Both the position numbers and the translations under genes were made by a program. Under the pieces are notes generated by a model. That model searched no databases, was not told the origin of the DNA, and was given only the letters and a program-made list of their open reading frames with translations. From Chlorops oryzae (Eukaryota > Arthropoda > Insecta > Diptera > Chloropidae): DNA of 64,000 nucleotides. Below are positions 8,957-55,700 of this stretch, piece by piece; the first letter of the stretch is position 1; each line of letters begins with the position of its first letter. The stretch covers positions 96,691,390 to 96,755,389 of the forward strand of contig CM035808.1 of NCBI GenBank assembly GCA_020466095.1. The letters run 5' to 3'.

Positions 8957-9204
8957 ATGAACAGCTACATGGGTGATTGATCAGTAAAACTGAATGTTTA
9001 TTTGGCGCTTAGTCTAAAGTCAGACAACATGTTCCGGAACATTTAGTTCGTAAGTATGTCTGACTTTAGACTTATTCTTATATTTTGGCGATATATCGAT
9101 ATATCGGCATTTTCTGTGACAAAAATTCGATATATCGTATCGGCTTTATATAGGATACGGGCGATATAGAATATCGATATTCTAATGCTCGATGCCCATC
9201 CCTA

Positions 9205-23309: not shown

Positions 23310-23409
23310 NNNNNNNNNNNNNNNNNNNNNNNNNNNNNNNNNNNNNNNNNNNNNNNNNNNNNNNNNNNNNNNNNNNNNNNNNNNNNNNNNNNNNNNNNNN
23401 NNNNNNNNN
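23310..23409. other. assembly gap (100 N)
   Basis: Exactly 100 N within H1. The round number suggests a scaffold join of unknown true size. Confidence 0.98.
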
Positions 23410-24093
23410 AAGTCTCCGCAATTTCATCAGCTGAAATCTCTTATTATCGGCACTAAAAATCAAAGCCGAAAGCTTTGCAATCAAATTGTTTTCGCTGGAA
23501 TTATCCATTTATTGTTTTAATTTCAAGAATAATTGCAATTTGTGTTGTTCGTGTTTTGCAATGTTGCCAATAGCAAAAATAAAAATTCCCTACAAACTAC
23601 AAAAAATTCCCTAAAATACTTTAAACATGGAAAATTCGAAAAAAATTAAGAATGCACGCAAGGCATAATCAAAAACCAAAAAAAAAATACATTATATCTG
23701 TTTTTTTAAAAAAAACTACTTGTGGAATTGTGGTAATTATTGTAGATGCGCAAAACGAAAAAATTTTAACTCGATACAAACAATCTTATTTTTCATTATT
23801 TTTGAATTTCTACTAAACTTTTTTTACACGTATAATTTTTATTTTGTCGTTTTAATTGATTGACAAGAAAAATATATCAAAATATATCTAATATTTTAGA
23901 ATATACCAAAAAATTCTCTACACTTTGCCGATTTTTCCCTTTTTCCCTTCAAGTGATTTTCCTACAAATGGCAACACTGCTTGCAATTGTAAATAAACAA
24001 ACAGCTGTCAAACATAAACACCTCGCATATGTGGAAACGCTCGAAGTGTTTAGCTAAACATCTCAGACTTAAACACCATATGGAAACGCACTA
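23410..24093. other. unassigned sequence right of the gap
   Basis: It begins with a 33-codon minus-strand frame (MDNSSENNLIAKLSALIFSA...) that I do not recognise. The rest is AT-rich without paired repeats. It should hold the H1 promoter if the gap is small, but I see no clear TATA box or H1 leader. Confidence 0.4.
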
Positions 24094-29312: not shown

Positions 29313-29958
29313 CAGAGCGTGTAAACGAAACAAATAACGTTCGGGTTATGGTTTTGGTTATGAAATGATTGTGGTTTCGAATACGGTTTCGTTCTGAAAA
29401 AAACTATTTCGGTTTCGGTATCGTTTCGTTCCGGTTACGGTTTTTCAAAGATTTTAAGAATCGCGGGAAAAATTCAAGGTATTAATCTCTCGCAAAGCAA
29501 ACCCGAAAGTTGTTCAGTTTTCAACTTTCGTTGCAATATATAAAAAATATTGACTACGAAATATAGACTTCAAACGCACCTTTACCTTTAAAAATTAAAA
29601 CTGAGATGAACAACAACATTAAAAATAATTTTTTTTTTACGAGATACCTCTCAATTATGCTTTACATTGAAATGAATTGAAAAAAAGGTTATTTTCAGTT
29701 CATATTTTTTATTTTATATAGTTTTAAGTTTCACGAAATTAAACCTTCTCTTTTATATAATAAAACAGTTCATTCTTTACAACAATATTTCGTACAGATA
29801 AAGATACAAAGCTTTTGAAATGTATCGAATTAAAAAACAAAAAATGAATTATGGTTGATTTCCAATAATGCAAGAATTTCTGCGCATCAATTTCTGCAAA
29901 CATTTTACACATACTAATATATAGAGTTAATAACAATCCAAAGCATAGTTGAATGAAA

Positions 29959-34590: not shown

Positions 34591-34596
34591 TAACAG

Positions 34597-37500
34597 TTGC
34601 CAAATACTGTATCATTGATGTCTACTGGTAACTCAAATAATGCATATGTTTTATTGGGTACAGCAGTCATTAACATTGTGAATCAACAGGGAAAAAGAGT
34701 GGAATGCCGAGCGTTATTGGATTCTGGATCACAAATAAACTTAATAACAGAAGGACTTGCAAGAAAATTACAATTACAATTCCAACCAGCATCAATCAAA
34801 ATAGAGGGAATCGGCAAAGGCAGCAAAGGTTCACAATTTTTCATTCAAACACAACTCCAGTCAAAATTGTCAGATTTTTCAGCGCCTCTTACCGCGTATG
34901 TCCTACCACATATTACATCAAAACAGCCATCTCAAACAATGGACGTTTCGAAATGGTCGCTGCCATCAGATATCCGGCTTGCAGACCCACAATTTGGTCG
35001 CCCCAGTAATGTAGATGTTCTGCTCGGTGCAGAATTTTTCTATCACTTACTAAAACCCCAACAACGAAGATTGGCACCTCATTTGCCAATTTTACAAGAC
35101 ACAGTTCTGGGATGGATTGTTACTGGCAAGATTGCACCAGTCCTACAAACTAAGGCATTTTGTGGAGTTTATACTGAAGAGGACCAGTCAATGGATGACA
35201 TGCTGACACGGCTCTGGAAAATGGACGAACTTGATTCTGAAAATCAAACATTATCGGTTGCAGAGCAACAATGTGAAAATCAATTTTGTCAAACAGTACA
35301 ACGCTCAAGAGAAGGACGTTTCATTGTTCAACTACCATATCAGGAAGAAGCAACAGTCTTAGGGCAGTCGCTACAAATGGCCACAAACCGATTTCTCGCC
35401 CTAAAACGAAGTTTAGCTAGAAACCCAGAAGTACAGAAGCAATACGTTGACTTCATGATGGAATATGAAAGGCTTGGACACATGAGCGAAATTGACTCAG
35501 AGGATGTACTAACACCACATTACTTTATTCCGCATCACTGTGTTCTACGTCCGGAAAGCAGTTCCACCAAGTTGCGAGTGGTGTTTGACGCATCAGCAAA
35601 AACATCATCACAAATCTCATTGAATGACATTTTGTTAAAGGGACCAACGGTACAAAGCACACTATTTTCAATTCTATTGCGATTTAGAATGCCGCGCTTT
35701 GTATTTACAACAGATATAGAGAAAATGTACCGCCAGATTCAAGTGCACCCAAAGGATCAGCAACTCCAGTTGATTGTATGGCGGCATGAACCCACTCAAA
35801 ATATTAAATACTACAGACTTCCGACTGTCACTTACGGTACAAGATCAGCACCATACCTTGCAACAAGATGTCTTAAGCAATTGGCAGTTGAGAACCAGTC
35901 TAACTTTCCTCTTGGATCAAAGGCACTCGAGAGGGATTTCTACGTAGATGATGCGTTAAGCGGTTCTGATAGTTTGGTCGAAGCTCGTGAGATCCAACAA
36001 CAGCTCCAAACTATTCTTGGCGACGCAGGCTTTAAGCTACGAAAATGGTGTGCCAATCACCCACAACTTTTGTGTGAAATCCCCCAAGAAGACAAGGAGA
36101 TAAATTTGGAACTTTCATCCGACATCGAAAAATCAGCTACAACATTAGGACTGGTCTGGACTCCAAAAACAGACAGCATTCGTATCAGAACAAACATTCC
36201 CGGCGCTCAAAGCATATCAAAAAGAGCAGTGGCATCCGATCTGGCAAAAATACATGATCCACTTGGGTTAGTAAGTCCAGTAGTAGTCAAAGCAAAAATA
36301 TTTGTTCAACAGCTCTGGACCTTAAAACTCGGTTGAGATGATCAACTATCACCGCAGCATCAGCAAGAATGGGCAGGGTTTCGAAAGGATATTGAATCAT
36401 TAAACGACACTTCAATACCAAGGCACGTATTCAACAAAAATATTCCCAAAGAAGTTCAAGTTCATTGTTTTACTGACGCTTCGGAGAAGGCATATGGTGC
36501 TGCTATATACATCCGATCAGTAAATAAGGATGGTACGATAAGCATAAATTTGTTATGTTTCAAATCAAGAGCGGCTCCCATCAAAACCCAGACAATTCCA
36601 AGGCTTGAATTATTAGCAGCGCAAATTGGAGCACAATTGACAAATCAAGTACAAAAGGATTTGAATTTCAAAGGACATATCTTTTTCTGGACCGACTCCC
36701 AAATTGTACTATGTTGGATCAACTCACACGCATCAGCCTTTCAAACCTTTGTATCTCATCGAGTGGCCAACATACAACGTTTGACCTGTCCTGAACAATG
36801 GCGATATGTCAACACCAAGGACAATCCAGCGGACGTACTCTCTCGTGGTTTGATGCCGAAAGAGCTTCCAAAATGCAATATATGGTTCTATGGTCCACTA
36901 TTTTTATATAGTAAGGAGAGAACCTGGCCAAGGGCAGTTATCAAAGGTCACCTTATTCATACTGACACTGAGAGAAAGGCTGAGAAAGCCACCTTAACCA
37001 CAACTGTTATCACAACAACAATGGAATCATTCATCTACGAATTAAATACAAGAAATTCATTTTATCGAATGCAACGAGTGCTTGGGTACATTGTGCGCTT
37101 CATCAACAAATGCCGGCGCAAGTCTCGAGAAGATCCAAATTCAAGCGAAGGTGCTGTTCTAAGTCCCAACGAACTAGAAGAGTCTCTGGCAATAATCATC
37201 AAAGCTATACAACATGCAGCATTCAAGGTGGAAATATCTAAACTTAGAGTTGAAAGGTCATTACCGAATTCACACTCGTTGAGCAGCTTGACCCCTTTTC
37301 TAGACGAGAAAGGCATTTTGAGAGTTGGAGGGCGATTATCAAATTCAAATCTCCCGTATGAAACAAAACATCAAATTCTTCTTCCATACAACGACGTTCT
37401 TGTGAAGTTACTTCTGACGGAAATGCATATTAAGAATAAACACTGCGGGCCTCAAGCGCTGCTTTATCAATCAAGACAACGGTTTTGGATAATCAAAGGT

Positions 37501-38634
37501 ATCGCAATGGCTAAGTCTGCAGTCAATCATTGTGTACGCTGCACAAGAACCAGGCCTACTCTATATCAACAAGTCATGGGAAATTTACCTCTCCCGAGAG
37601 TGCAAGCAGCTCGACCATTTATAAATGCTGGCGTGGACTTCTGTGGACCACTTACTGTGCACTATAAAATTAGAGGAAAACGTCCGACAAAGGTGTACAT
37701 TGCAATATATTGCTGCTTTGCAACCAAAGCAGTACACTTGGAGCTCGTAGGTGATCTAACAACGGAAGCATTCATCGGATCATTGAAACGATTCATTGCA
37801 AAGCGGGGTACCTGCGAAAATTTATATTGCGACAATGCTACAAATTTTGTGGGTGCAAGAAATCGATTACCGGAACCCAAGGACATAATATACTCAGACA
37901 AGGCACAAAAAAGCATTGGACAACAGTGCAGCAGCTCTGGAATAAATTTCAGTTTTATACCACCTCGAGCACCGCATTTTGGAGGCCTCTGGGAGGCTGC
38001 TGTGAAATCGGCAAAACATCTACTAATTAGAAGTGTTGGTGCCACTTCACTGACCTTTGAGGAATTAAACACGGTCATACATGAAATTTAGGCCATCTTA
38101 AATTCGAGGCCTATTACTCCAATGTCCAGCAACCCTAATGACCTCATCGCCCTTACACCAGGACACTTCCTCATCGGACAACCTCTCACGTCAATGCCAG
38201 AACATACAAGCAGTACACAGCAACCCAATTTACTAACAAGATGGGAACAAGTGTCATATATTAAAGGACAATTTTGGAAGAGATGGAGCTCCGAATACCT
38301 ATCAGGGCTTCAACAGAGACATAAATGGAAACAACCAAACCGAAATGTGGACGTCGGAACATTGGTCATCCTTAAAGAGGATAACAGCCCACCATTAAAA
38401 TGGCCATTGGGCCGCATCGTCAAGGTGTATGAAGGCGATGATCAAAGAGTCAGAGTTGTGGATGTAAAAACAAATTCAGGAGTATGCAAGAGAGCAATAC
38501 ATCGACTTGCACCACTGTTTCCAGAGGAAGAGTCATCACCGACCGTCAATTCAGACAAAATGTCAACGGAGGTACCTGCAAAAAGGAGACGCACGTCTGT
38601 GAGTTCGAATTTACTAACACTCATCGTATCATAA
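34597..38634 (+). pseudogene. BEL pol (protease, RT, RNase H, integrase)
   Basis: One frame throughout, interrupted by TGA at 36334 and TAG at 38089. The order is: aspartic protease (LLDSGSQINLI, about residue 41); RT with FTTDIEKMYRQIQVHP, VTYGTRSAPYLATRCLKQL and catalytic FYVDDAL; RNase H (HCFTDASEKAYGAAIYI, PRLELLAAQ); and the integrase zinc region (HCGPQALLYQSRQRFWI, HCVRCTRTRP). The DDE core follows (AGVDFCGPL, YCDNATNFVGA, HFGGLWEAAVKSAK), and then the BEL-specific C-terminal domain (ALTPGHFLIGQPL, FWKRWSSEYLSGLQQRHKW). The YVDD box and this last domain identify BEL/Pao rather than gypsy. The two nonsense changes kill it, though coding is otherwise well kept. Confidence 0.88.
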
Positions 38635-40184
38635 TTGATACTTCCAATAATTCTGGGAGCACAGATTGAAAATAAGGTATTTGGATCAAAATTAGGCGTT
38701 CACTTTGAAATGACACTAAAAAACGCTTGCGATACGCTCATATTACATTTCGAACACATTGAAGATGAATTAAAAATGGAAAGTGTACTTCTAGCCAGGC
38801 GAAGATCCCGACGAGGAGCGACTAATATGGTTGGCAACGTTGTGAATTCACTTTTTGGAATACTTGACTCCGAATACGCAGAAAATATGAGCCACACCAT
38901 TGCTCAAGTAAAGGAAAATGAGAATCACTTAATCCATTTGTTAAAAAATCAAACCTCGATAGTTGACTCCACTATCAATATACTAAAACATGATCAAACA
39001 GCGGTTAAGACGAAATTCGATCAACTAGACAATCAAATTCAGTTAATTCTCAACAGCGTACGAAGCAACGATGAAGAGCGATACCAAGAGAAGATGTACC
39101 ACACCTTTACTACATTGGCTATGCAGCTTACAATTATTGCAACGAATTTGCAGCGAATGCAATCATCAATGTTGGACGTACTCACGGACGCTCATCATGG
39201 AAAAATAAGCCCGCTGCTCCTTTCACCCAATCAGCTGCAACAGGAGGTTGCTAAAGTTAAAATGCACTTGCCTAGTTCGCTTGAGTTACCTGTAAATCAA
39301 GACGAATTATTAAAACTGTACACAATCATGAGTGTCAAAGGAGGACTGACAAAAGACAAGGTCGTCTTCAGCATAACTTTACCCTTAGTGAGTCATGAGC
39401 GCTTTGAGCTTTTTCATCTCATTTCAATTCCAATCTGGACCAACAACACGATGATAGCGATTGACATTTGCTCTCAATACTTAGCGATCAACAATCACAT
39501 CGACCAGTATTTTCCAATGAGCAGCTCCGAACTTAAATCCTGTATCATCATCAAAGACGGAAGTTACATGTGTTCCAAGCTTCAAGTTAGATATAACCAT
39601 GGCTCCACAGTATGCAAATGCGAGCTTAACCTCTTTAATAACTTCACCCAGTCCGATTGCCACTTGCAACGAATGTCTGAAGAATTCACGTGGATTTCAC
39701 TGCAACACAGAAATCAATGGATCTACGCAACGAAAAAGGAATCACGCGCAACAGTTGTATGTGGCAGAGAAATTACACAAATCATTTTAAAAAACTCCGG
39801 GATACTTACTCTTCAACCAGAATGTATGGTCAAGCACAATTTCATGGCCATTCAAGCTCATCAACAAGTGTCCTAGGAAATTTAACTGAAGTATCGCGTG
39901 TTGAACAATTGAAACCAATAGTAATGGAGGCAAATCCAAATAAGTACACGCCACAAATTGCTAATCTCAGTTTGTTGCAGTCTTCATTAGCAACAGAAGA
40001 ATTACTTCAACTACCAAATAAAATGGAAAATCAGAATTATCACCACATCGCAGTTGGTTACACTGCACTATTTGCAGCTCTACTTATCTTGATGTATGTC
40101 AAGTGCAAAAGAAAACAAAAATTTCTTCCAACTCCACGGCCTCATCAACAGCAAAACGAAACTGATTTCACTGTTCACATTTAG
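38635..40184 (+). pseudogene. env-like gene of the BEL element
   Basis: The first frame (38635-39876) has a dibasic furin-like site (RRRSRR) directly before GATNMVGNVVNSLFGILDS, the cleavage and fusion-peptide layout of insect retroelement envelopes related to the baculovirus F protein. A long heptad region follows (about residues 85-170). The stalk and cysteine region ends near LQPECMVKHN. A second frame (to 40184) supplies the C-terminal membrane span (VGYTALFAALLILMYV) and a short basic tail. The two lie in different frames, so a frameshift near 39860 breaks the gene. Nothing suggests current function. Confidence 0.75.
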
Positions 40185-41188: not shown

Positions 41189-41632
41189 CAGAGCGTGTAA
41201 ACGAAACAAATAACGTTCGGGTTATGGTTTTGGTTATGAAATGATTGTGGTTTCGATTACGGTTTCGTTCTGAAAAAAACTATTTCGGTTTCGGTATCGT
41301 TTCGTTCCGGTTACGGTTTTTCAAAGATTTTAAGAATCGCGGGAAAAATTCAAGATATTAATCTCTCGCAAAGCAAACCCGAAAATTGTTAAGTTTTCAA
41401 CTTTCGTTGCAATACATAAAAAATATTGACTACGAAATATAGACTTCAAACGCACCTTTACCTTTAAAATTTAAAACTGAGATGAACAACAACATTAAAA
41501 ATAATTTTTTTTTTACGAGATACCTCTCAATTGTGCTTTACATTGAAATGAATTGAAAAAAAGGTTATTTTCAGTTCATATTTTTTATTTTATATAGTTT
41601 TAAGTTTCACGAAATTAAAGCTTCTCTTATAT
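41189..41632 (-). mobile_element. hAT copy 2, left portion
   Basis: It starts CAGAGCGTGTAAACGAAACA and follows copy 1 closely until the gypsy LTR at 41633. The rest of the copy continues at 52725. Confidence 0.85.
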
Positions 41633-42145
41633 TGTTGTGAGGATTTTTCCGAAATCCCTCACTCGCCTATCGGACCGAATTTTCTAAAGAAAACGCTCTT
41701 TAGTTTTATAATTTATCATTATTTATTAAACGATTATCTACAACTGTTAACTGCAACTTATATTTAGCAACTGATTTCAACTGATTCTTAGTTTAGAATA
41801 CAAAAGCTTATATACTTATTATTCTATATATTTAAACCTAAGTCTGCGCTCTGCAGACGCTGATTTGTTCTTCGGGAACGGTGTCATGGGCCTGCTGACG
41901 GATGCTGATCTGTGCAGGTGTGCTTCCGGGTTTGTTGGTCGTTTTGTTCCCACGAACATTCGATTCTCATATTCGCATAATTCGCATGCTCGGCGATTCT
42001 GCGTAAGGTCACCTATGTTGTAAAGTTGCACTTGGCACGCTTGTATGAAGGTCCAAAATGCCAGCTTGCATTTTTGGCCGTCTGCCGTCGCTAGCGGTAT
42101 TTCGTAAGCTACAAGATGAGCTGCTCTGCTGTTTGACTCATAACA
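41633..42145 (-). repeat. gypsy 3' LTR
   Basis: On the minus strand it starts TGTTATGAGTC and ends CTCACAACA. A polypurine tract adjoins its start. It matches 52208-52720 over its whole length. Confidence 0.93.
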
Positions 42146-42159
42146 TCCCTCCCCCTTTT
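42146..42159 (-). promoter_or_regulatory. polypurine tract
   Basis: AAAAGGGGGAGGGA on the minus strand lies directly against the 3' LTR, the plus-strand priming site of the element. Confidence 0.85.
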
Positions 42160-42612
42160 GAAGACGATGCCACGTTTTGGCATTCAAATTAACGGTGGAA
42201 GGTAAGTTTGTCATTGCTATTGTAAGGATTGCCGCAAAAGCCATCTTAGTGTTTTGAGTCATCTGTTATAGGAAGATTGGCTGGTTGTTGGGATCCGACA
42301 GGAAAACTATTTATTTGGTCCCAAAATTTTAAGTGGTTTAACTTTCATATTTTTTTGTTGGTGCAACTCTGGAACTGCTCGAACTTCCGACTAACGTTTT
42401 GAGTTTTCTTGTTTCTGGTTCTGGTAGGTGATGACCTTACGCCATATTGGTTAATTACGAAGCTTGTGGTCAGCATCCCATCGATGTCCTCTCCTGCGTC
42501 ATTCTGCTATAGATTCGATTGAGACAGTTGGAGTGTGTTTTTATCACTATTTAATTTTTAATTTGATTTTTTTTTTTTTTTATAATTCTTTTTTTTTTTT
42601 TTTTGCATACTT

Positions 42613-42651
<39 letters not shown>

Positions 42652-43010
42652 ATGGGTTTCTCATGTTCAATTTATTTATTAATTTTCTTTCTTTTCTTTT
42701 TTTCATTAAATATTTTCTTTGTTTCAACTGTCTCCCACCTGTAATTTACAAAAATTTTACTTACAGATTATAATCTATATTTTAATTTTATAATATAATA
42801 ATTGTATAATATTCTTAATTATATAATTCAGTTTTAAGCTACTAATTTTTCGATTTTTCTTACAACTATATACATATATGTTATCGAAATTTTAGTCTTT
42901 TATGGCAATTTAAATTTTTACTATTAGTATGATCTATTTAAATTTCATGATTTCGAACATTTTGAATTTTAAATTTTGTATGTTTTTCCTCAGAATATTT
43001 TTCCATTCAA

Positions 43011-43054
<44 letters not shown>

Positions 43055-43224
43055 TTTTTAAATAATTTTGAATGATTTTATATATTTTATATTTATAATT
43101 TTTTGAATAATTCGCTTTTCTTTTCTTTAAACTTTGAAGTGCAACTAGTGGGAAATTACTCCTTTTTTTTATGTGAAGTGTAATGTCAAATTTTGTTAAT
43201 TTAGATACTTGATTTTTTTTATTT

Positions 43225-43257
<33 letters not shown>

Positions 43258-43968
43258 TTTTTTTTATATGTATATCTCCAATTTCCTCTTATTTTGTTTT
43301 TTTTTTTTAATAATTTTTTCTTACCAATCACTCTTCCCCTCTTCTTAGTTTGGAAACTAAATTAAATTTAGAAATTTCAACACTTTCAATTGAGTTTCCA
43401 AATTTTAGAAGGGAAATTTTACGTCTGATATCCATCGTTAAGCCTCATTGGTCTTCCTGAAAAGAAAAAGAAAACATGAAATTATTCCCTACCTGTGTTA
43501 CAACTATTCTCGTGTCCCTACCTTTATTTCGGCTGTTCAAATTGAACTTGACAGTTTTTAATTTTTGCATAACTACTTTCGAACTTGACCTATTTATTTT
43601 TCTTTTGACTGTCTTTTGGTGGTTTGAGTTCAATTATTATTTTCTTATTTTTTCCGATATTGCAATGTCAAGTGCACTATATAAAAGAAATTGTGTTTGC
43701 TCATCAACCATTTACTTCGCGGCTGGGCTTTAAACTGAACAGAATAAACAAAAAAATTATTTTGCTTTTATTGTGTCTTCGCTTGTTTTGATATGCGGAG
43801 CATTTTGTCTTGAACAGAAAATTGTTAATTTTTTATTTTTTTAAGATATGTAATTGTCGCGTGGTGGAGCTTTATTTCTGGTAGCGCCAGTTTGAAATAG
43901 GATCGCTTCGAAAATATAGAAAAAGCAAAGAATGAATTTATTCTATAAGTTTTCATTTAAGTAGTACT
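42160..43968 (-). other. AT-rich 3' untranslated region of the gypsy element
   Basis: Between the end of the PTP frame and the polypurine tract. It contains long T runs (42566-42648 and 43216-43310) and a (TA)n stretch (43015-43046). Open frames here are low-complexity; no env or further gene is recognised. Confidence 0.6.
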
Positions 43969-45942
43969 TTATAAGGGCCTGGTAACAAAATATTGTGTGG
44001 CGTTTGGAATTGCTTGCGCCCTTTGTGCACGTATTTTGTTTACTATTTCCCGTACCTTTATGTTCTTTTTATTTTCTTTCAAATCTAAGGCGATATTTAA
44101 AGCTATAAAAACGCATGTTCTACCTATGCCTGCAGCGCAATGAACTATCATCGGCGGCGGATTTGTTATATTAGTAGTTAACCTCTTTTGATTTTCCTTA
44201 TTTAATCTTATAAATTGCCATAATAGTTTAGCATTTGGTATGCCTTGATCGGCCCAACACCTAAATTGCCAATGGTAAATTGTTCTAGAAGTTTCTGATT
44301 TTTGATCGTATAGTTCTAACTCCGTACAAACAAAATTCTTGTTTTCATTTTTACTGAGCGTTTTAACGCGAAATTGGAAAAATATTTTGGTGGAATTTAC
44401 GTCAGCTTCCCAGTATCTAGCACACTCTCTCGACTTCGTGAGCATAACTATGGTATTACAATTTTGTTCCCATACCATTTGAAAGAAGTCTTGTATGGAA
44501 TTTTCGAGAGGTCCCTGCGTAGCTATATATGACTTCGTCTTTTTGTATCCATCCACAAAACTAGCATGAATATATCCTGACATGTTCTCGTGTTGTCGTG
44601 ATATTTTTACACGACTGTGGTCAAAACAAGGCACGTTCCTATAGCGATTTTTTTCTGAATTTCTTAGAAAATGTTTAAAAGATCCCTTGACTGGAATTCG
44701 AGTCATTTGTACATGCTCTTCGGTTAGCTTGCGGTTAATATCTTTTGCCTCTTTCCCTGCTTTTATGTATTGAGTGTTTGCTTTTTCCTGATTGACTTTT
44801 AACAAATTTCTGTGGAAGGTTTTTTCTTTGCCCTTGATTAAAATTCTAGCATTTACAGAAGTGGGAAGTGATACAACTCTATAAGGACCCTCCCAAATAG
44901 GCGAAAATTTATTCTTTCTGGTTTGGTTTTTCAGCCAGACCTTATCTCCTACCTTAAATTCTCTAATTTTCGATCCCTTATCATAGTATATTTTCGAATT
45001 TTGCTTTCCTTTTTCTTGATTTTGTCGAACTAATTCATGCGTTCTTTGAATCTGGTACTTTAATATTTTTGAATAATCATCAATATTGTATAGAGGAGCG
45101 GGCTTCCTTTTTAGATTAACAGGTACATCAAAATCGAAACCAAAAAGTGTTTTGCTAGGCGTTTGTTTCGTAGTGCTGTGTACAGTATTATTGTGTACAT
45201 GCATGGCATGATGAAGCCAATCATCCCAATTTGTACCGTCTTCTTTCGCAAAAGTTCTTAAAAATTCGGCTAATGGTCTATGGCTTCCTTCTAAAGCACC
45301 ATTGGCTTGCGGATGATATGGAGAAGTTTCTATTTTCTTAATTCCCATTAGCTTGCATACTTCCTTAAAAAGTTTTGAAGTGAAGTTTGTGCCATTGTCA
45401 GTGACAAGAATTCGTGGAATATTGAATTTTGAAATTACTTCGTTAAAGAACGCTTTTGCTACTGTCGACGATTCTGCATCGGGAATGCCTGTACATATGA
45501 AAAATTTTGAAAAATCATCTAAAAATGTAAGAATATATTTATTACCGCTTGAAGTGACTGGTAGGGGACCCACCATGTCCATATATATCTTATCAAAAGG
45601 ACGTTGGGATATCTTTGTGAGAACCATCGGCATTTTCTCGACTTTTGAACTTTTATTTTTCTGACAAAGTTCACATGTTTTCACGTAATCCTTTATTTGT
45701 TTTTGCATGCCTTGCCACTTAAATTGTTTTCTAATTCGCAAAAACGTCTTCATTGTCCCTTTATGACCTCCTATGGGTGAATCATGAAATGTTTTAAGGA
45801 CCTTTACAATCTCCTTTGGGTCAGTTAAAACTTGTGCCATGTCTTCTTCAATATTTTCATCAGTTATTTCATCAGGGTTTTCTTTAGCCTGAGCTCTTGT
45901 TACTACAGATATTGTGCTGTCGATATGTGGAATTCTACTCAA
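43969..45942 (-). CDS. integrase fused to a protein tyrosine phosphatase
   Basis: One open frame of 657 codons, continuing pol after a frameshift. Integrase: zinc-binding H53, H60, C90, C93; DDE core D122 (MDMVGPL), D182 (VTDNGTNF) and E218 (HPQANGALEGS); C-terminal GPY motif at about residue 352 (WEGPYRVV). A 35-residue linker follows HRNLLK. Residues 417-657 are a classical PTP domain: KNRYRNVPCFDHSRVK, YIHASFVDGY, YIATQGPL, FFQMVWEQ, then HWQFRCWADQGIP, HCAAGIGRT and QRAQAIPNATQYF. Integrase inserts the cDNA; PTPs remove phosphate from tyrosine in a cytoplasmic or nuclear setting. The usual WPD loop reads WAD, but the acid is kept. The frame stops soon after the Q-loop. The annotated start is only the first Met after the frameshift. 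Confidence 0.92.
   Translation of the reverse strand: MSRIPHIDSTISVVTRAQAKENPDEITDENIEEDMAQVLTDPKEIVKVLKTFHDSPIGGHKGTMKTFLRIRKQFKWQGMQKQIKDYVKTCELCQKNKSSKVEKMPMVLTKISQRPFDKIYMDMVGPLPVTSSGNKYILTFLDDFSKFFICTGIPDAESSTVAKAFFNEVISKFNIPRILVTDNGTNFTSKLFKEVCKLMGIKKIETSPYHPQANGALEGSHRPLAEFLRTFAKEDGTNWDDWLHHAMHVHNNTVHSTTKQTPSKTLFGFDFDVPVNLKRKPAPLYNIDDYSKILKYQIQRTHELVRQNQEKGKQNSKIYYDKGSKIREFKVGDKVWLKNQTRKNKFSPIWEGPYRVVSLPTSVNARILIKGKEKTFHRNLLKVNQEKANTQYIKAGKEAKDINRKLTEEHVQMTRIPVKGSFKHFLRNSEKNRYRNVPCFDHSRVKISRQHENMSGYIHASFVDGYKKTKSYIATQGPLENSIQDFFQMVWEQNCNTIVMLTKSRECARYWEADVNSTKIFFQFRVKTLSKNENKNFVCTELELYDQKSETSRTIYHWQFRCWADQGIPNAKLLWQFIRLNKENQKRLTTNITNPPPMIVHCAAGIGRTCVFIALNIALDLKENKKNIKVREIVNKIRAQRAQAIPNATQYFVTRPL
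43972..44694 (-). other. PTP catalytic domain (part of the integrase frame)
   Basis: About 241 residues, close to the length of a minimal PTP domain. The nucleophile is C602 and the phosphate-binding arginine is R608 in HC-A-A-G-I-G-R. The general acid is D565 in W-A-D, where families nearly always have W-P-D. The KNRY pTyr-recognition loop is at 431-434. The usual K-C-x-x-Y-W block is shortened to RECARYW. By eye the DHSRV and YIHA.FVDGYK wording is closest to insect PTPN9/Meg2-like phosphatases and to the PTPs carried by some insect viruses, but that is judgement, not a search. Activity is plausible but unproven. Confidence 0.9.
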
Positions 45943-48191
45943 AGCGTCAGCGTTTTGATTATTTTTTCCCGGCTTATAAAAAATTTCAAAATCGTACCTA
46001 AAAGTTTAAGGCGAAAACGACCTAGTCTCGAATCTTGTTCCTTTAAATTGGCTATACCTTTTAATGGCTTATGATCGGTGTATATTTTGAAAGGTCTCCC
46101 CAATAAATAGGTCCTAAAATTTTTCACAGCCCAAACTATTGCCAAAAATTCTTTCTCAATTGTAGAATATCGTTTCTCAGTTTCACTTAACGCTCTGCTG
46201 GCAAAATAAATAGGCAAATCTTCCCCTGGTTCTCCTTGCGAGAGAACAGCTCCTAAGGCTTCATTACTAGCGTCTGTTAGAATAAAAGTTTTCGAAAAAT
46301 CTGGATATTGAAATAAAGGAGGTGAGGTTACCGCAGCTTTAAGCTGTTCCATGGCCTTCTGACAATCATTGTTCCATTCAAACTTAACGCTTTTTCTTAA
46401 TAATTTGTTTAGTGGAACTGAAATTTTTGCCGCATTTGGTATAAATTTGCGATAATAATTGATTAATCCAAGGAAAGCTTGTAACTCTTTTACATTTCTG
46501 GTTGGTGATATTTTTTGTACACTTTCTACTTTTAGTGGATCTGGCAGCACGCCTGATTCCGAACATTTATGCCCTAAATATATAACTTCTTTTTTAAGAA
46601 ATTGACATTTCTCTGTTTGAAGTTTTAAACTGTTATGTCTTAAGACTTCAAAAACCTTACATAATCTTTCTTCATGCTCTTCTAAATTCCTAGCATAAGT
46701 AACGATATCATCAAGATAAACAAAACAATCAATTCCCTGCAAACCAGTGAGAATGCTATTCATTATGCGTTGAAAGGTTGCAGGTGCTCCCGTGAGCCCA
46801 AAAGGCATTCTGGTAAATTCAAAATGTCCCATTCCCGTGCTAAATGCTGTCTTCTCCTTATCTTTTTCTTCGATAAGCACTTGATGGTATCCGCTGGCTA
46901 AATCTAAAGTTGAAAAATACCTACTGCAACCCAACTGATCGAGAATTTCATCTATTCTAGGAATTGGAAAAACTTGTTTAATGGTAATATCGTTCAATTT
47001 TCGGAAATCTACCACAAGTCGCCATTTCTTTTTCCCATCGGCACCGGCCTTTTTCGGTACTAACAATATCGGAGAATTCCAAGGAGACTTGCTTGGAGAA
47101 ATAATGCCATCTTTAAGCATTTTGTCAACCTGTGAGGTTATTTCTGTTTTATGCACTTCTGGTAGTCTATATTGCCTAATATTAACTGGTGGCTGCCCTG
47201 GCTCTGTTGCAGTTTCGTGTTTAAGAACTGTCGTATATGAAAGCTTATCCTCACTCAAATGAAAAATATCAGAATATTCTCTGAATACGCTCTTCATAGA
47301 TTTTAATTCTTCTTCGTTTAAATTATTATCTAAACGTACTGTTTCCATAATCAATTGAAAACGATCATTCATTTTCTCATCCTTTTTGACAAAATTTATC
47401 CCTGTTTTTCCTAACTCCTCATAATCCCTAAGAAGAGTGTAATTTAGCTCCTTTAGCTGTCCAAATTTTACATTTTTTCTACTTGCATTCAGAACTGGTA
47501 CAAATCCTTTTCCCTTTTTGATTCTTGTTATTGCATTTCCAACGTATACTCCTTGCAAAATTTCTTGCTTATGTACCACTATATCTCCTGATTCAATATT
47601 AACCTTAATTGTAATTATTTTTGAAGTTCTAGCGTTTATCGTAATTGACTCAACTACGCATATTCTTCTAGTCTCTTGCTCTGAACAAAGTGGTAATCTT
47701 GCGATTTCCTTGCTATTTGCGAAAAATGAAATCGTCTTATTAACTACATTCGTAACCGAACGGGTCCACAGTTCATCTCTACCCAAAAGTCCATCTGCTG
47801 GTACTTTGCTACCAAATGGAAGTACGTGCATATTAAAATTTAATGCTTTGTTTTCTTGGTGAGATATCCTTACAGCTCCCTCTGTACTAATACTACCACC
47901 AAATGCTCCACCTAATTGCTTAACCTCTGACCTGTCAACTTCAACTTCTTCTTTTAAGACTTCAGATTTGAGCAAACTAGTGTCTGCCCCTGTATCGATA
48001 AGCAGAGTTAATTTATCATTTTTAGCTTGTCCACACGGAAATACTATAAATGCATCATCTGAACGACATCCCTCATCTATGGTTAAAGAATTTGTTGAAC
48101 TGTCAAAGTTGTTTAGCTTTAGGTCTTTGAGCAGCCTTTTCTTCTTAATTGACTCTGACTTACTCAATTTTCTATTTAAATGCAATTCCAT
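45939..48191 (-). pseudogene. gypsy pol: protease, reverse transcriptase, RNase H
   Basis: A 750-codon frame. Aspartic protease LLIDTGADTSLLK (residues 64-75). RT spans about residues 355-540 with WRLVVDFRKLN, FSTLDLASGYHQVLIEE, FEFTRMPFGLTGAPATFQRI and catalytic VYLDDI (491-496). RNase H starts with FILTDASNEALGAVLSQGE and includes YSTIEKEFLAIVWAVKNFRT and YTDHKPLKGI. This is the Ty3/gypsy order. A one-base shift near 46000 moves the conserved end of RNase H and the ADALSRIP motif into the next frame, which continues as integrase. Apart from that and the stop at 48213 the region is well preserved. Confidence 0.9.
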
Positions 48192-48212
48192 TGTTTTTCT
48201 TTCTAAAACAAC

Positions 48213-48800
48213 TTAACCCTTTGAAAGCGACTCTTGTAGACTAGTACACAAAATAATCAACATACTTAATAGTATGATCCATCCCTTGGTGAAAAATTGC
48301 TTTACACATGAATCACTAGAATATGATATTTCATAAACATCTCGTGGATAGGTATACTCAATAACTTGTTCAGAAAATGTAACCTTCTTATTATTTTCTT
48401 TTCGCTTTCTAACGGAACATATAGGCTCGCTTAGCCTAACGTATGTTTTTTCATTCTCCTTCATCTGCTCACTACTACAGAGTGGCTGACTTTTGTTTAT
48501 TTTAATAGTGGAGTCTTCGACTTCAATTTTATTTATATCCAGTTCCAATAGCGACTGTGACTGACAAGATAAGCTTGATTTTTCCTCTGTGCTTCTTTTT
48601 AAAATTTTTAATTCTATTTTCTTTAGTTCATTTTTCTGCACATTGCCGCCACCGGATACTGGAATAGGCCTTAATTTTTCTAATCTATTATCGGCTTTCC
48701 GGTCTACTGGCCTTGACCGGGCCGTGTATAGTTTCCCTGACTCTGAGTTGCGGACGGACAATTTGGTGAAATATGGCCAAACTGTTTGCATTTGTAGCAC
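48213..48800 (-). pseudogene. gypsy pol N-terminal extension
   Basis: Opens in the -1 frame relative to gag over the last gag zinc knuckle, the usual gypsy frameshift arrangement. It is in the same frame as the protease segment, separated only by a TAA at 48213-48215. It is charged and unrecognised up to residue 170, then carries a hydrophobic stretch (GWIILLSMLIILCTSL), odd for this part of pol. The annotated start is not a real start, because the frame is entered from gag. Confidence 0.65.
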
Positions 48801-51662
48801 TGCCTATTACACTAGTTTACAGAATTTAAAACTTTCGCGAGAGCACAGACGAAATGATGGTTTTAAGACTAAATTGGGGTCGCTGATCACGAAAATGGCA
48901 TCCGTTTTTTTCCCCAAAAAATAGTTTTTGAGATATGGGCAAAAAACGTGTTTTTTGGTTACTTAATGAAATTTTGCCAAATAACTCCAAAACGGCTAGT
49001 CTAAATAAAATAAAATTTTATCAGCATGAAGCAGAAAACTTTCCCCTTTGCAACGATATATAAGAGGTTTTCCAAATTTACTCAAATTTTAGTGCCCTTA
49101 TATTATGTACAAATTGGATTATTGCTTTCAGTGACGTTGAAGTGGACCGGTTGATTTTAGTACTGCGACGTCTATGAGTAAATTTGGAAAACCTCTTATA
49201 ACTTCTTTGGTTTCCAATCGATTTGGAAGAAATTTGGTTTTCTAATAACGTTAAATATATGTTTATCATTTTTAGTAACCGAAAAAAAAAAAAAAATTTT
49301 TTTTTTGCTTAAAAGTTAAAATGAAATTTTGAAAATTCAAAAAAAAACCCAAAGTAAGTCAACTTTTTTCAAGTTCAAATGCCTATAGCTCAAAAACTAA
49401 GACACCGATTGTAACAAATGATATATCGTTGCAAAGCGGAAGGTTTTCTGCTTCATATTGATAAAAATTTATTTTGTTTAGACGAGCCGTTTTGGAGTTA
49501 TTTGGAAAAATCTTGTAAAGTACCCAAAAAACACGTTTTTTGCCCATATCTCAAAAACTATTCTTTGGAAAAAAAAAACGAATGCCATTTTCGTGATCAG
49601 CGACCCAAATTTAGTCTAAAAACCAATTTCTTCGTCTCTGCTCTTTTTTTTGTAAACTAGTGTTATCAATTCTAAGAGCCCCTTGACCATTTTTGGGTAC
49701 ATTTTGACGATCGTTAAACCTGCTTTGCCCTCTATTGTCGTACGTAGTAGTGTTTTGGCTTTGTGTTTGATTGCTATTCTCTCTACTTGGATTCTGTGTT
49801 TGAAAATTATTCGCCTTCATACTGCAAAATTTATTAGCTAGGTGCCCGCCAATACGACATATGTGGCAATACATTTCTCTCAACTTTACTAGACAATTTT
49901 CGGCTAAATGGCCTTGTTTTTTACAAAAAGTACAACTTAATTTCTGGCGTTCCTCTTGGCCGCATTGCGTTCCTCTTTCATGACCGTAAATGCTACATTT
50001 TTCGCAAAAAGGAGTATTTAATCTTGTCTTACAGTGTGCATAAAAATGTCCTGATTTTTTGCAAAAACTACAAACGCTATCCTCTGTGAGCAGATCCTCT
50101 ACTAAATTGATTTCGTTTACTTTGCAGCCTATTCGTGACTGGATTCTTTCGACAAAATCTACTAACTGACCAATGGAATCGTTTTCCCTTCCGGCTAACA
50201 TTTGCTCAAGTGATCGGTCTCGCAATCCTTTAATAAAGGCATTTACCCCAAGATCCTTAAAAAATACCTCCATATTATCTAATCCATAGGTTTCTTTTAC
50301 GAATTCATTCGCTTCTTTTAATAATTCCTCTATCCTGCTACCAAAAAGGACCACTGGCTCACTTGGGCCTTGCCTAATGTTATCTAAGTCTGCCCTTATT
50401 TGGTCTAGAGTCCTTGCTTTAGCATAATTTTGTTTTATAAATTCGCAAAATTCGTCTATTGATGAAAATTTTTTCTCCCCAACCCGCTTATGCGCCTTTC
50501 CAAACAATCTCAGCTTTATGCATTCTATTGCGAGCTCTGTGTCCCCAGGTGAGACTTCTCTCTTCAACAATTGACACCCTTGTATAAATTTATCTACTTC
50601 TATTTTAAGCTCTGGGCAAGATGTTCCTGAAAAGATTGGCACTAGCATGTCAACTACCTTTTTCATTTCACTGACTAATGTTCTCATTGAAGACACGTTT
50701 ATGTGGTTCGGACGATTATATTCTCTGACTGCGATGGGCTCATTTACTTTTGGAATGTCACCGAAGTGCGAAACTCTCTCTTGTGAACTGTTATCTCTCA
50801 AACTATTGTCATTTCTTTGGTTAGCACCAAATTGAAAGAAATGTTCTAAATTAGCTCTCGCGGCTGAAAAATTTGAATCTGATTTGGTATGTTTGTTCTG
50901 CATCATATCAGTTTTCGGTCTTAACTGATTTGATTGACCTGCTGAGGGTGGAGGCGGGGGTGGCGGTATTTGTGTAGGTGTTGGCTGTGGAGTCAACGAA
51001 GGACTTAATGAATGTTCCCCTGAATATTCTATTTGACTTGGAGTCAGTTTTGAGATTTCGATACCAGCTTCTGATAATTCTTTTGATAATGGTGTTAAGT
51101 TACCGGTCGCTTCGTTATGTACTGTTAATTCGTTATTGTTAGACATTTGAGGACGACCAATGTTACTATTTTCGTGGTTGGCACAACGTAATCTCTCCTT
51201 CAAATGCTCTATTTCTGCTTTCTGTTCAGCGACCGTTTGTCTATTTTTTTCAAAATGGTTTAACTGTCCTGCGCTAAAATTTTCTTTCAATAAAAGTTCC
51301 CTTAGTCTGTCGTTTTCTAGTTTTTGTTCTTCCAAGGATGAATCTGAACCCGCTAACGCGTCCTTTAATTTTTTGTTCTGTGATTTCAATAATTTATTGC
51401 TAAGCTGTAATTTTTCTAATTCTTTTTCGAAAGCTTTACTCTTTTTATCACTTGCGCTTTCTCTTATATGTTCAAGTACTATGTCAAATTTCTCTTCTTG
51501 AGTTTTACCTTCTATTTCACTGCGAACTGAATTTAAAAATGATCTTTTCTTATTTACTGACTCTAGTACTTCCCACAATTGTCTAAAATAACTAGCAGTT
51601 AAACGTTCATAAGTGAATACTTCTTGCTTTAAATTTTCTATAATTGCGCTATTTCCTTCCAT
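48704..51662 (-). pseudogene. gypsy gag, split by a MITE
   Basis: Starts at MEGNSAIIENL (51662). Residues about 1-165 are heptad-rich coiled coil. A proline run (PPPPPPP) lies near residue 235. The capsid region includes FSGTSCPELKIEVDKFIQG and LDNIRQGPSEPVVLF. CCHC knuckles lie at residues 531-544, 553-567, 577-590 and 599-613. The frame then enters the MITE (48810-49662) and stops. On the far side, in the gag frame, lies a fifth knuckle (CYKCKQFGHISPNC) and a stop at 48704-48706. Gag forms the particle and packages RNA. Five knuckles and a long coiled coil are unusual, since gypsy Gags usually have one or two. The MITE makes this copy defective. Confidence 0.88.
48810..49662. mobile_element. 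foldback MITE inside gag
   Basis: TIRs CACTAGTTTACA/TGTAAACTAGTG are flanked by TTA on both sides (48807-48809 and 49663-49665). The interior is an almost complete palindrome: about 48870-49080 mirrors about 49405-49620, with an inner pair around AGAGGTTTTCCAAATTTACT. A 3 bp TTA target suggests PIF/Harbinger. No coding capacity. Confidence 0.8.
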
Positions 51663-52207
51663 TTGAATTTTAATAAATTAATATGGCTTTTCATGTACTT
51701 ACCATCGTGCTTGTGATAGTTAAATTCTATGTCCGATGCGGCGGCTTTGATGAATAAAAAGTTTATTTCGGGGATAATTTTTCGCGGACAATTTTTCGCG
51801 GATTATTTTCGTGGATTTATATTTTCGTGGATTTTTTATTTTTTTTTTTTCGCGACGAAAAGTACGTTTTAGTCTTTAATATAAAAACAAAAGTCCATTT
51901 AAAGATTAATTCGCCAAGGATTCTTTATTCTCCAAACAGGGAAAACCATGCGCTCTATAAATATAGCAATACCCTCGGTGCCTGAACACAATTCCCGGGC
52001 TCTGTTAGCAGTGCCTGAACACACATCCAACAGTTAGCAACATTTAATAGTGCAACAAGGCTTACTCTTGCAGAAGAATTTTGATTGAATACCAAGGACT
52101 ATTTCTCTTTTTAATGTCCCTAAAGGTGCAATACTTCGCGGACGCGATGTTGTACACGTAGGACGTCAACTACTTGGAGTAGTTGTAAAAACCGGCTGCG
52201 CCAATAA
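51663..52207 (-). promoter_or_regulatory. gypsy 5' leader with primer binding site
   Basis: About 545 bp between the 5' LTR and gag. Four bases inside the LTR, minus-strand TGGCGCAGCCGG (52192-52203) resembles the tRNA-Ser primer site used by many fly gypsy elements. The rest is untranslated leader. Confidence 0.7.
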
Positions 52208-52720
52208 TGTTGTGAGGATTTTTCCGAAATCCCTCACTCGCCTATCGGACCGAATTTTCTAAAGGAAACGCTCTTTAGTTTTATAATTTATCATTATTTA
52301 TTAAACGATTATCTACAACTGTTAACTGCAACTTATATTTAGCAACTGATTTCAACTGATTCTTAGTTTAGAATACAAAAGCTTATATACTAATTATTCG
52401 ATATATTTAAACCTAAGTCTGCGCTCTGCAGACGCTGATTTGTTCTTCGGGAACGGTGTCATGGGCCTGCTGACGGATGCTGATCTGTGCAGGTGTGCTT
52501 CCGAGTTTGTTGGTCGTTTTGTTCCCACGAACATTCGATTCTCATATTCGCATAATTCGCATGCTCGGCGATTCTGCGTAAGGTCACCTATGTTGTAAAG
52601 TTGCACTTGGCACGCTTGTATGAAAGTCCAAAACGCCAGCTTGAATTTTTGGCCGTCTGCCGTCGCTAGCGGTATTTCGTAAGCTACAAGATGAGCTGCT
52701 CTGCTGTTTGACTCATAACA
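52208..52720 (-). repeat. gypsy 5' LTR
   Basis: 513 bp, matching 41633-42145 with about seven substitutions by eye. It carries the promoter of the element, though I cannot point to a convincing TATA box. The ATAT target duplication follows at 52721. Confidence 0.93.
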
Positions 52721-52724
52721 ATAT

Positions 52725-55700
52725 ATAAAAAAACAGTTCATTCTTTACAACAATATTTCGTACAGATAAAGATACAAAGCTTTTGAAATGTATCGAATTA
52801 AAAAACAAAAAAATTAATTATGGTTGATTTCTAATAATGCAAGAATTTCTGCGCATCAATTCCTGCAAACATTTTACGCATACTAATATAAAGAATTAAT
52901 AACAATCCAAAGCATAGTTGAATGAAACTAACTCCATATGCTTGGATGCGTTGAATGTTTGCAGGAATTAATGCGCAGGAATTTTTGCACTATTAAGAAT
53001 GAGGCATTATTTTCAGCTGGGTTAAATATCTGTAAGCCATACAAATGATTCGTTCTTATTAGTGAAATAGAATCCACCACATCAGCATTTAAACCATTTT
53101 TTGTGGGTGGCATAACAAATTTGAGACCGGAAAACAGCCTTTCAACACTTACCTGTGTCGCTGGCACAGCTAGGACTACTTTAGCTAGCTGCGCTTAAAT
53201 AGGTTTTTTCAGAGACTGATTTTTCCAGTACTGGAGAACATTGATATTCTTGTCTTGACGTTTTTATCTCGAAAAGGCAAGCAAAAGAGGACGAAGATTT
53301 AACTGTTTCTGATCAATAATTTCATTTTGATCACGCTTTAAATCCAATTGCGACAGCATTAGCTCAAAATCGTCAGATTCATTTACTGCACTCGCATTGG
53401 TTGCTTTTTCACATATTGAGCTCTCTGAAGTGCTTACGTTATATTCCTCTACAGTCATCTTCCGAAAAAGTTGTATCAGCAAGCATATAGCTTGCTCCTT
53501 TTGCTCACTTGTTAAAATGAGATTGAACCGAGGATCCAAGAAAATGGTCATCAAAAAGTCATCGTTTGAAAATAAAATAGTTTCTCTCCTGTCCATATCC
53601 GCACATAAAAGTGAAGATAACGACGAATTAAATTTTTTAGTTTTGGCCTTACATTGAGACTACAATGCGAAGAAGTCTCCAAGAACAAGCTGTTGACCTT
53701 GCAGTTTTTTTGTTGTACAATAAGATGGTTCGAGAATCTCTACTATATTTTAGATTTTTTGCCATTCCGGAGAGTTCAAATGGAAATCTTTATTAGCCGC
53801 TGCTAGAGTTTTACAAAACGTTTGAAGTTGAGGATCTTTTAAAGCAGCGAGCATTTCAAAAGTTGAACCCCAACGTGTAATCACATCCACCGGTGGTCTT
53901 CGAATGCCCTGAATCTTTAAAAGAGTCATTGTTTTCGGAGTTCGCAGCTTCTTTGCAATTTGCCTAGCTTTTGAAATAATACCATTGAATGGGGTATGCT
54001 TTAACGCAGAGTTGATTGCAAGCTGCAATGTATGGGCAGCACAACGTAAGCCTATAATAGAGAGGTTATTCTTTGATTTGAATTTGCCGAAACTATTTCA
54101 TTGAACTCAAAATTGTGATTTAATACAAAATACAAAAATGCTTACCAATGCAGTTACTTGACGTATCTTTTGCTACATTCTCCAGAAGTCCAATATAAAT
54201 TAAATTATATTCTTCGGTTTCTTCATTTGTCAAGTTCTTATCATCTTCTTTGTCCTCGAAAGAGTTCAAAATTGCGACTTCTTTAACTATATTGGCGCCA
54301 CTATCAGTAGTGCAAGTGAAAAGGCGGTTAAGGGGAATGTCGAATTTGAGAAGTGTTTTATTAATAAATTTTTTTAAGTTTTCGGCAGTGTGCCTTTCGT
54401 GGACTTCTTGAAGCGATAAAGATCTCAACTGGACTTTAAAGTCATTGCCAACAAACTGCATGTTGATTCCTATGAAAAACTTTTGAATTGGAAAATTAAA
54501 AAAAAAAAAATAACAGACATTTCAAACCTAAAAAAGATCTATTCAAGATCGTTACGCAATCAAGTTTTAGCGATATAAGATTCCTCTCAAATTCGTTTTT
54601 GATTAGTTGTTGAACATTTTTTGCTTTTTCCACTATTCTTTCTCTGATGTTACGTTTATTTACTGTGAGCCGTAATGACTTTAGAATCGGATCCAGAATT
54701 TTTAGAAAGCCCGAGTCGGTGACGATGGAGAAAGGTCTCCCGTTTACAGAGCAAATTTCCAGACAAGCCTCCCACACTGTTTGTTTCGATAAGTTAACAG
54801 AAACTTATGTATTCCAGACTTCATCAATTCTTCTTATATTCGGTTGTATTCCCACACGTTTGTTTTGTTGTAAGGGCCTACTGTTAGCCATTTCGCTTGA
54901 GTATGATTCTTCATGTGCATACTTTATATGCCTAGATAGATTTCCTCGATATCTCCCTAGAATCACACCAAAAAGGATTTTTGAAACGCAAACGATTCCC
55001 TATTATTCTTAGATCATTGGTTTTAACGTTTTCAAACCTATAAGATTTTTCCTTGGAAATGCAGCAAAACAGTGTATTCCAAGGAATAACGCGCACATTT
55101 GTTGGAGCTTCTTATTACACGTTCACATTGTACATACATAAATATATATGTATATATCCCACATGTTCTTTAAAAGTGAGAAATTAACACAAAAACGCCC
55201 GCTCAATTTAATATTTTTGTTAAATTTCTGAACTGAAGAAACGATATCCAAAGTATTTTAGGGAATGAGAAAGAGAAAGATTTCGAGTTATGTCACTTTT
55301 ATTGAACGTGCGCACTATATGTGCATATGTGCTTTCATTGAATTCGTGCTTGGAAATTACAATCAATGTCTGTATGTATATACATATGACCATATATATA
55401 CATATGTATATATATATGCATGTGGTATCTTCTACAGCAAAAACATACAGTAACGGTTTGTGCTTTTTCTTAGAACACGATGAAGTCCATGGTCATTTGT
55501 TGCGAGACTGATATAAAAAGAGATTAAACAAACTTACCTCAATGGCTTTCGAAAACTGGTTCCCATCTTTAGTTTTAATCATATAGAACTATAGGTCTAA
55601 CTCTTCTTCTTCCTAATCCCTGCAATGTGTTAGAGCTACGCTGCTTCAACATAGGCATATAGCATGAGGAAAAGAGAAGCATGCTATGTCAGCGAAATCT

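Follow-up and report, generated by a model that had tools for sequence, protein, structure and literature searches.

Insect endogenous retroviruses, or errantiviruses, of the gypsy clade carry gag-pol and an F-type env and include env-less lineages, according to the available text of PMC12992720. The same layout is found in a Ty3/gypsy long terminal repeat (LTR) retrotransposon and its related families in Chlorops oryzae, located in a stretch of 64,000 nucleotides (assembly GCA_020466095.1, contig CM035808.1, positions 96,691,390 to 96,755,389, forward strand), which is referred to as the window. Unlike errantiviruses, this lineage encodes a protein tyrosine phosphatase (PTP) of the PTPN9/Meg2 type that forms the C-terminus of Pol and immediately follows the integrase, and most of its sampled families encode a SENP-like open reading frame (ORF) further downstream, after env where env is present. 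The words "accessory" and "phosphatase" do not occur in the available text of PMC12992720.

Captured enzymes are described in other mobile elements. The LTR retrotransposons of bdelloid rotifers carry enzyme genes (ORF3) after pol that are common to several families, as here, but there the ORF is a separate one and encodes DEDDy nucleases and GDSL esterases; the word "phosphatase" is absent from the available part of PMC5408684, from which this is taken. In orchids, a Ty3/gypsy lineage has captured and fixed a host "eraser" enzyme, the RNA demethylase AlkB, which differs from the present case in being of plants, in a separate ORF and directed at an RNA mark; the available section of PMC9289625 on a screen of 121 angiosperm genomes names no PTP. 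The Ginger1 transposons join a gypsy-type integrase to a C-terminal host-derived enzyme (OTU or Ulp1), although these are cut-and-paste DNA transposons with a protease rather than a PTP (available text of PMC2836005). Among insect viruses, baculoviruses and bracoviruses encode PTPs that probably came from insects; unlike the present element they are DNA viruses, and their PTPs are free (available text of PMC5704228). The available text of PMC6338049, on accessory domains, does not contain the word "phosphatase". No LTR element with a PTP was found in the open-access literature (subscription papers and Repbase lying outside that scope), in agreement with the sequence-only reading of this DNA, which knew of no described gypsy family with a PTP; within the same scope, retroviruses are not known to encode one either. 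The element thus belongs to a known kind, LTR retroelements with captured host enzymes, and its PTP type has, as far as searched, not been met before.

Integrase-PTP frame of the window copy

The sequence-only reading had proposed that the integrase frame continues into a PTP without a stop, and this holds on the minus strand, where the following features were identified:

43969..46005, minus strand: pol frame with integrase and PTP, 678 amino acids, stop-free (ORF and Pfam)
45646..45822, minus strand: integrase zinc-binding domain, residues 62-120 (Integrase_H2C2, E 4.4e-20)
45310..45606, minus strand: integrase core, residues 134-232 (rve, E 2.8e-17)
43984..44661, minus strand: PTP domain, residues 449-674 (Y_phosphatase, E 1.2e-65, 221.8 bits, cut-off 20.9)

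The C-terminus of the integrase exhibits a weak MLVIN_C-like match in Pfam (E 0.0024, under its cut-off). The plus-strand reading of 43969-46005 contains many stops, and the frame in this copy is far beyond chance. The KNRY and P-loop motifs claimed for the PTP are present, the P-loop reading HCAAGIGRT. A Q loop is present too, but its catalytic Gln262 is replaced by Pro, and the acid (WPD) loop reads WAD. Residue numbers follow PTP1B.

Copies and families in the genome

A PTP-profile search of the 442-Mb genome gave 151 matches from 596 candidates, with 150 scored; this number is a lower bound, and a few of the matches are host genes. The matches are found on several chromosomes and on numerous contigs. 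A manual count, excluding two with an internal stop, puts at least 31 of the 151 in frames that stay open for 1,500 codons or more. Seventy matches were fetched (L009-L078), of which 65 are element copies and five host-like sequences (L009, L010, L029, L030 and L036) were set aside. The integrase adjoins the PTP in all 58 copies that were fetched with upstream DNA. It is in the frame of the PTP in 55 and in a different frame in the other three; 40 of the in-frame copies have no stop from the integrase match to the P-loop and 15 have one or more. An assembly artefact or a single insertion is ruled out by this pairing. Absence of the fusion from other LTR elements had been named beforehand as grounds for rejecting the sequence-only reading; instead, it is carried by all 58 copies and by the metagenome protein P0228 described below.

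The 18 long copies form eight families, between whose representatives the integrase is 74-92% and the PTP 44-68% identical, so that a PTP after the integrase is kept across eight families of this genome. The window family consists of the window copy and L020, L021, L023, L024, L025 and L027. In L020, L021, L023 and L024, a single open frame of 1,618 codons runs from the start of pol through the PTP and, in the -1 frame, overlaps gag. In L023 this overlap contains one slippery heptamer, GGGAAAC, in the right phase. The distance from the integrase match to KNRY is 48-65 residues in copies with a full integrase match.

Relatives outside this genome

This layout recurs in at least one element that comes from a different source. 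A protein-database search with the piece from reverse transcriptase (RT) to PTP gave 2,208 matches (7,985 best candidates scored), and P0228 was the only one among the best 120 of these to join RT, RNase H, integrase and PTP (Pfam E 4e-68) in one chain. Its source is a JGI contig of 7,035 bases, and its integrase match lies 72 residues from KNRY. It is 76% identical to the window copy in the RT, 64% in the integrase and 34% in the PTP, so it belongs to none of the fetched families. No integrase-PTP fusion was found by name among 107 protein-database matches, and no protein with RVT_1 or rve among the best 120 of 6,282. The pol relatives that were found are unnamed metagenome proteins. In a pol tree (FastTree, 78 rows) P0235 branches first, followed by P0228, P0229 and then the families of this genome; support is just 0.46 and 0.63 for the forks on which the positions of P0228 and P0229 depend.

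Origin of the PTP domain

The PTP of the element is a PTPN9/Meg2-type domain without the CRAL-TRIO (SEC14) domain, a source that the sequence-only reading had listed for comparison and that both tree and fold bear out. In a maximum-likelihood tree of 58 PTP domains, from which bracovirus and baculovirus PTPs were left out, the element PTPs and PTPN9 form one clade (support 100/98), within which 20 PTPs of this genome (97/98) and PTPN9 (99/96) form sub-clades. The branch of P0228 is long and falls between these two at an open fork. Constraining all 21 element rows to group together was not rejected (p 0.53), nor were two other arrangements of the fork. A receptor-PTP origin is ruled out: placing the elements with LAR-type domains was rejected (p 2.4e-5), and the best single-stretch match in the PDB is PTPN9 (170 bits, the next 135). 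Two-domain LAR-type receptors lead the PDB sequence matches by E-value (4.4e-77) because their two domains add up.

PTPN9/Meg2 is also the nearest host relative by fold. The AlphaFold2 model of the L014 PTP domain has a predicted local distance difference test (pLDDT) score of 87.3 and a predicted template-modelling (TM) score of 0.88, and its top 11 PDB matches are all PTPN9/Meg2 (TM-score 0.88-0.90 on the query), the alignment behind the model having included PTPN9 sequences. The element PTP is 40% identical to a protein of Aedes albopictus. The 50 residues ahead of KNRY resemble Aedes PTPN9 in L014 (z 6.4) and in P0228 (z 5.7), and the same segment exhibits no resemblance in five other copies (z -0.5 to 1.6). 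The PTPN9 proteins P0013 and P0120 contain a CRAL-TRIO domain; Pfam identifies none in the element frame, which differs from PTPN9 also in the loss of Gln262. Constraining the elements with insect PTPN9 alone (Aedes and Zophobas) was rejected (p 0.008 with 20 rows and 0.005 with 21), which speaks against recent derivation from an insect, unless the tree is misled by fast evolution or long branches. As to a viral origin, two IMG/VR scans found no relative of the element PTP; a source in bracovirus or baculovirus PTPs, which the tree did not include, may still apply.

Catalytic residues and selection

Residues were surveyed in 67 rows, comprising the 65 copies, the window copy and P0228. Retention of the catalytic Cys, the Arg and the acid Asp, as proposed from the window sequence, extends to nearly every row: Cys215, Arg221 and Trp179 of the acid loop are kept in 67/67, Asp181 in 65/67 and Tyr46 of KNRY in 63/67. 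The hallmarks of a classical PTP are therefore present in the HCX5R P-loop, the acid-loop Asp and KNRY, and not in the Q loop, where Gln262 is lost in 63/66 rows (to Pro, Asn, Ser, Thr or another residue). The Asn of YINA (N68 in PTP1B numbering, labelled N111 in the analysis) is replaced by His in 64 rows. The P-loop Gly is Asn in 6/67 rows and the acid-loop Pro is Ala in 21/67.

In PTP1B, mutation of Gln262 cuts the turnover rate (kcat) about 100-fold, and the Q262A mutant made phosphocysteine visible (available text of PMC10267100). Where Gln262 is lost but Cys, Arg and Asp remain, slow turnover and a long-lived phosphocysteine would therefore be expected. Judged by its residues, the PTP is expected to bind or trap phosphotyrosine as much as to turn it over fast.

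The PTP has been kept by purifying selection through the divergence of the eight families. Ratios of nonsynonymous to synonymous substitution rates (dN/dS) were calculated by the Nei-Gojobori method for 2,080 PTP pairs and lie well below 1, upholding the past selection that had been suspected. The median is 0.24 (0-1.06) for 247 pairs with dS 0.02-0.1, 0.28 (0.13-0.49) for 43 pairs with dS 0.1-0.3, 0.17 for the 2 pairs with dS 0.3-0.6 (0.16-0.18), 0.25 for 5 pairs with dS 1.0-1.5 and 0.15 for 262 pairs with dS 1.5-2.5. The integrase ends of the same pairs have medians of 0.15-0.17.

Downstream genes

An env-like ORF of 504-520 codons follows the PTP in L012, L017, L022 and L026, with Baculo_F matches over the cut-off (E 6e-7 to 7e-9); inspection of those of L017 and L026 by eye shows a cleavage-like basic site and, near the end, a hydrophobic stretch. 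Further env matches were found by tblastn in L011, L013, L018 and L028 and none in L014, L015, L016 and L019; in L014 and L015 env is gone, leaving a 2.6-kb gap relative to L012. In the window family, F-type env has no match in the window copy, L020, L021, L023, L024 or L027, and an env fragment in L025 lies behind the PTP of a second element. The idea that the PTP occupies the place of env, where gypsy elements had been said to end in integrase or to carry env, is not borne out, and a PTP standing in for env is ruled out, since related families have F-type env further downstream in addition to the PTP.

A SENP/Ulp1-like ORF of about 284-304 codons with a Peptidase_C48 (C48) domain follows env or the PTP in L012, L014, L022, L026 and L028. 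A C48 ORF in L017 is cut by the end of the fetched DNA. The coordinates within the fetched loci are as follows:

L012, 107-964, minus strand: SENP-like ORF, Peptidase_C48
L014, 6127-7017: SENP-like ORF, Peptidase_C48
L022, 8696-9604: SENP-like ORF, Peptidase_C48
L026, 1179-2030, minus strand: SENP-like ORF, Peptidase_C48
L028, 2124-3035, minus strand: SENP-like ORF, Peptidase_C48
L017, 9073-9699: SENP-like ORF, Peptidase_C48

The ORF is present in five of the eight families and was not seen in the seven members of the window family; L016 and L019 have neither env nor this ORF within the fetched DNA. It belongs to the element, because L014 and L015 share sequence through it up to position 9193. 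Between different families the SENP-like ORFs are 38-53% identical, and a His, an Asp, a Gln and a Cys occupy invariant columns across the six sequences, presumably as the catalytic set. The best relatives by sequence in the PDB are SENP7 (E 9e-14), and a model of low confidence (pLDDT 62) matches SENP7, Ulp2 and SENP5. In the genome, 150 of 513 C48 candidates were scored. Eighteen of these matches, identified by eye, share the strand of a listed PTP match and lie 0.9-4.4 kb downstream of it, where chance alone would give 0.15.

Further C48 matches have no listed PTP match nearby. They include a group of ORFs of 297-325 codons that score the same, or almost so, at 77.8 bits; this group is possibly another element family.

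The downstream region is also mosaic. L017 and L028 are 81% identical in pol and 97-98% identical around the end of env and the SENP-like ORF. Distances between PTPs are larger than those between integrases at synonymous sites too (for example, 0.31 against 0.14 between L019 and L060). Together these point to recombination of modules between families.

Proposed function and alternative explanations

The anatomy of the element and the selection on its PTP, taken jointly, are close to certain. The best explanation as a whole, a selected PTP borne on Pol with a proposed role as a slow or trap-like phosphotyrosine enzyme, is probable. How it would act is a tentative guess from the sequences. The PTP would be made in the same small amount as Pol through a -1 frameshift from gag, as the GGGAAAC of L023 suggests, and would be carried in the particle together with the integrase. 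In the intracellular part of the cycle it would bind and dephosphorylate phosphotyrosine on a host or element protein, with Gag, the integrase or host proteins as candidate substrates. The window family keeps the PTP without env or the SENP-like ORF, which suggests a role inside the cell at a step before, or apart from, cell-to-cell spread. The element may thus use the PTP to interfere either with signalling in the cell or with proteins of its own.

Several observations weigh against this explanation. Gln262 is kept in 3/66 rows, all of one family and with Leu at Gln266. P0229, a close relative, has a frame that ends right after the integrase with no PTP in it; this may reflect loss of the domain, a contig or frame that stops at that point, or two captures of the PTP. 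As many as 1,477 of the 2,080 PTP pairs are saturated, and the pairs share history, so the dN/dS values are descriptions and not tests. The PTP and the SENP-like ORF also diverge fast and recombine, so that their functions may differ between families.

The other accounts differ in what they make of the same residues and genes. If the PTP were a structural or binding module, such as a scaffold of the particle or of the pre-integration complex, catalysis would be irrelevant; the widespread loss of Gln262 and the changes in the P-loop Gly and acid-loop Pro agree with this, while Cys and Arg are invariant and the retention of Asp in 65/67 rows counts against a mere scaffold, which would not need the acid, leaving this account quite unlikely. 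A counter-defence set, in which the PTP and the SENP/Ulp1-like protease remove regulatory modifications from those host proteins that keep the element in check, would give the downstream ORF a part as well, with SUMO-dependent piRNA silencing and tyrosine-kinase signalling as examples of what might be opposed. The presence of this ORF behind the PTP in five of eight families, its invariant His, Asp, Gln and Cys and the 18 nearby C48 matches favour such a set, and, by the title of Andreev et al. 2022 as cited in PMC13371464, Panoramix SUMOylation reportedly ties piRNAs to heterochromatin; the window family, however, has no protease, and we hold this account to be possible, if doubtful. The same reserve applies to a broader picture in which a phosphotyrosine-trapping PTP built into Pol, where it would travel with the integrase, and a SUMO-protease-like ORF in most sampled families would be paired captured erasers, swapped as modules and directed against host control.

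Two further accounts concern how the PTP came to be there. A passenger sequence, transduced once and amplified by hitch-hiking, or an artefact of assembly, has in its favour that LTR elements do carry transduced host sequence (available text of PMC6431247). It is highly improbable given that the PTP, at 44-68% identity between families, is retained by all eight of them and has a dN/dS well below 1, that copies lie on several chromosomes and numerous contigs, and that P0228 shows this order too. Independent acquisition of PTPN9-type domains, by the ancestor of P0228 and by that of the families of this genome, would agree with the open fork between P0228, PTPN9 and the other elements and with P0229, which is weakly placed between P0228 and these families and lacks a PTP in frame. 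Two captures are nonetheless unlikely, as both domains sit at the same spot after the integrase at similar distances from KNRY (48-65 residues against 72), the captured segment reaches 50 residues or more ahead of KNRY in L014 and P0228 alike, and a single element clade is not rejected.

Should the Pol-borne PTP be active, it would give the element a handle of its own on tyrosine phosphorylation, a signalling layer not usually tied to the control of retrotransposons, and the question of which phosphotyrosine protein limits an LTR element would become testable. A PTP that has naturally lost Gln262 while retaining Cys, Arg and Asp is a rare natural experiment on the purpose of a PTP without selection for fast turnover.

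Anatomy of the window copy and neighbouring features

The window copy has the attributes of a Ty3/gypsy element, namely a TG...CA LTR pair, a target duplication, a primer site, a polypurine tract and the pol order; on the element strand Pfam places gag before protease, RT, RNase H, integrase and PTP. In addition to the frame described above, it comprises the following:

41633-52720, minus strand: Ty3/gypsy element, LTR to LTR
41633..42145, minus strand: 3' LTR, 513 bp, TGTT...AACA on the element strand, pairing with 52208-52720
52208..52720, minus strand: 5' LTR, 513 bp
41629..41632: left target-site duplication, ATAT
52721..52724: right target-site duplication, ATAT, so that ATAT flanks both ends
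52192..52203, minus strand: primer-binding site TGGCGCAGCCGG, read from the sequence
42146..42159, minus strand: polypurine tract AAAAGGGGGAGGGA, adjoining the 3' LTR
49611..51677, minus strand: gag frame, 688 amino acids (Retrotrans_gag, E 2.6e-4, 21.6 bits, under the cut-off of 24.1)
48840..49644: DNA inserted between gag and pol and bounded by inverted repeats (224-nt arms at 48840-49061 and 49421-49644, 88.8% identical)
48213..48803, minus strand: pol start, frame of 196 amino acids, no accepted Pfam domain
45939..48212, minus strand: pol frame with protease, RT and RNase H, 757 amino acids (RVP E 4.1e-4, RVT_1 E 5.3e-35, RT_RNaseH_2 E 2e-33)
42146..43968, minus strand: AT-rich tail of 1,823 nucleotides between the PTP and the 3' LTR

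The primer-binding site putatively matches the 3' end of tRNA-Ser, and such a site and the ATAT duplication would fit the elements 17.6 and 297. The tail has no env match, and no match to the SENP-like ORFs of L014 or L022 is listed for it. The pol start aligns at 97-98% to the pol-frame start of L020, L021, L023, L024, L025 and L027.

The description of the copy as otherwise decaying is confirmed. Its pol frame breaks between RNase H (48212-45939) and integrase (46005-43969), the 3' end of the gag frame falls within the inserted DNA, and the final few codons of the PTP frame differ from those of its relatives. The two LTRs, however, differ at only 7 of 513 sites, so the copy is young despite these breaks. 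An uninterrupted, element-free paralogue of both flanks is found at window positions 28816-31236 (97.2% identical over 942 nucleotides and 98.7% over 1,484).

This paralogue is part of a repeat present twice in the window, at 28816-32726 and 52722-55579, that bears the end of a hAT-like transposase (52928-53194, Dimer_Tnp_hAT, E 4.9e-7), and the PTP element is inserted within one of the two repeat copies. A BEL/Pao element occupies 34594-40184 on the plus strand, and its third gene (38635-39876) scores as a Baculovirus F protein (E 1.7e-34). A linker histone H1 ORF of 248 amino acids lies at 22762-23508 on the minus strand (E 5.4e-25), in transposon-rich surroundings.

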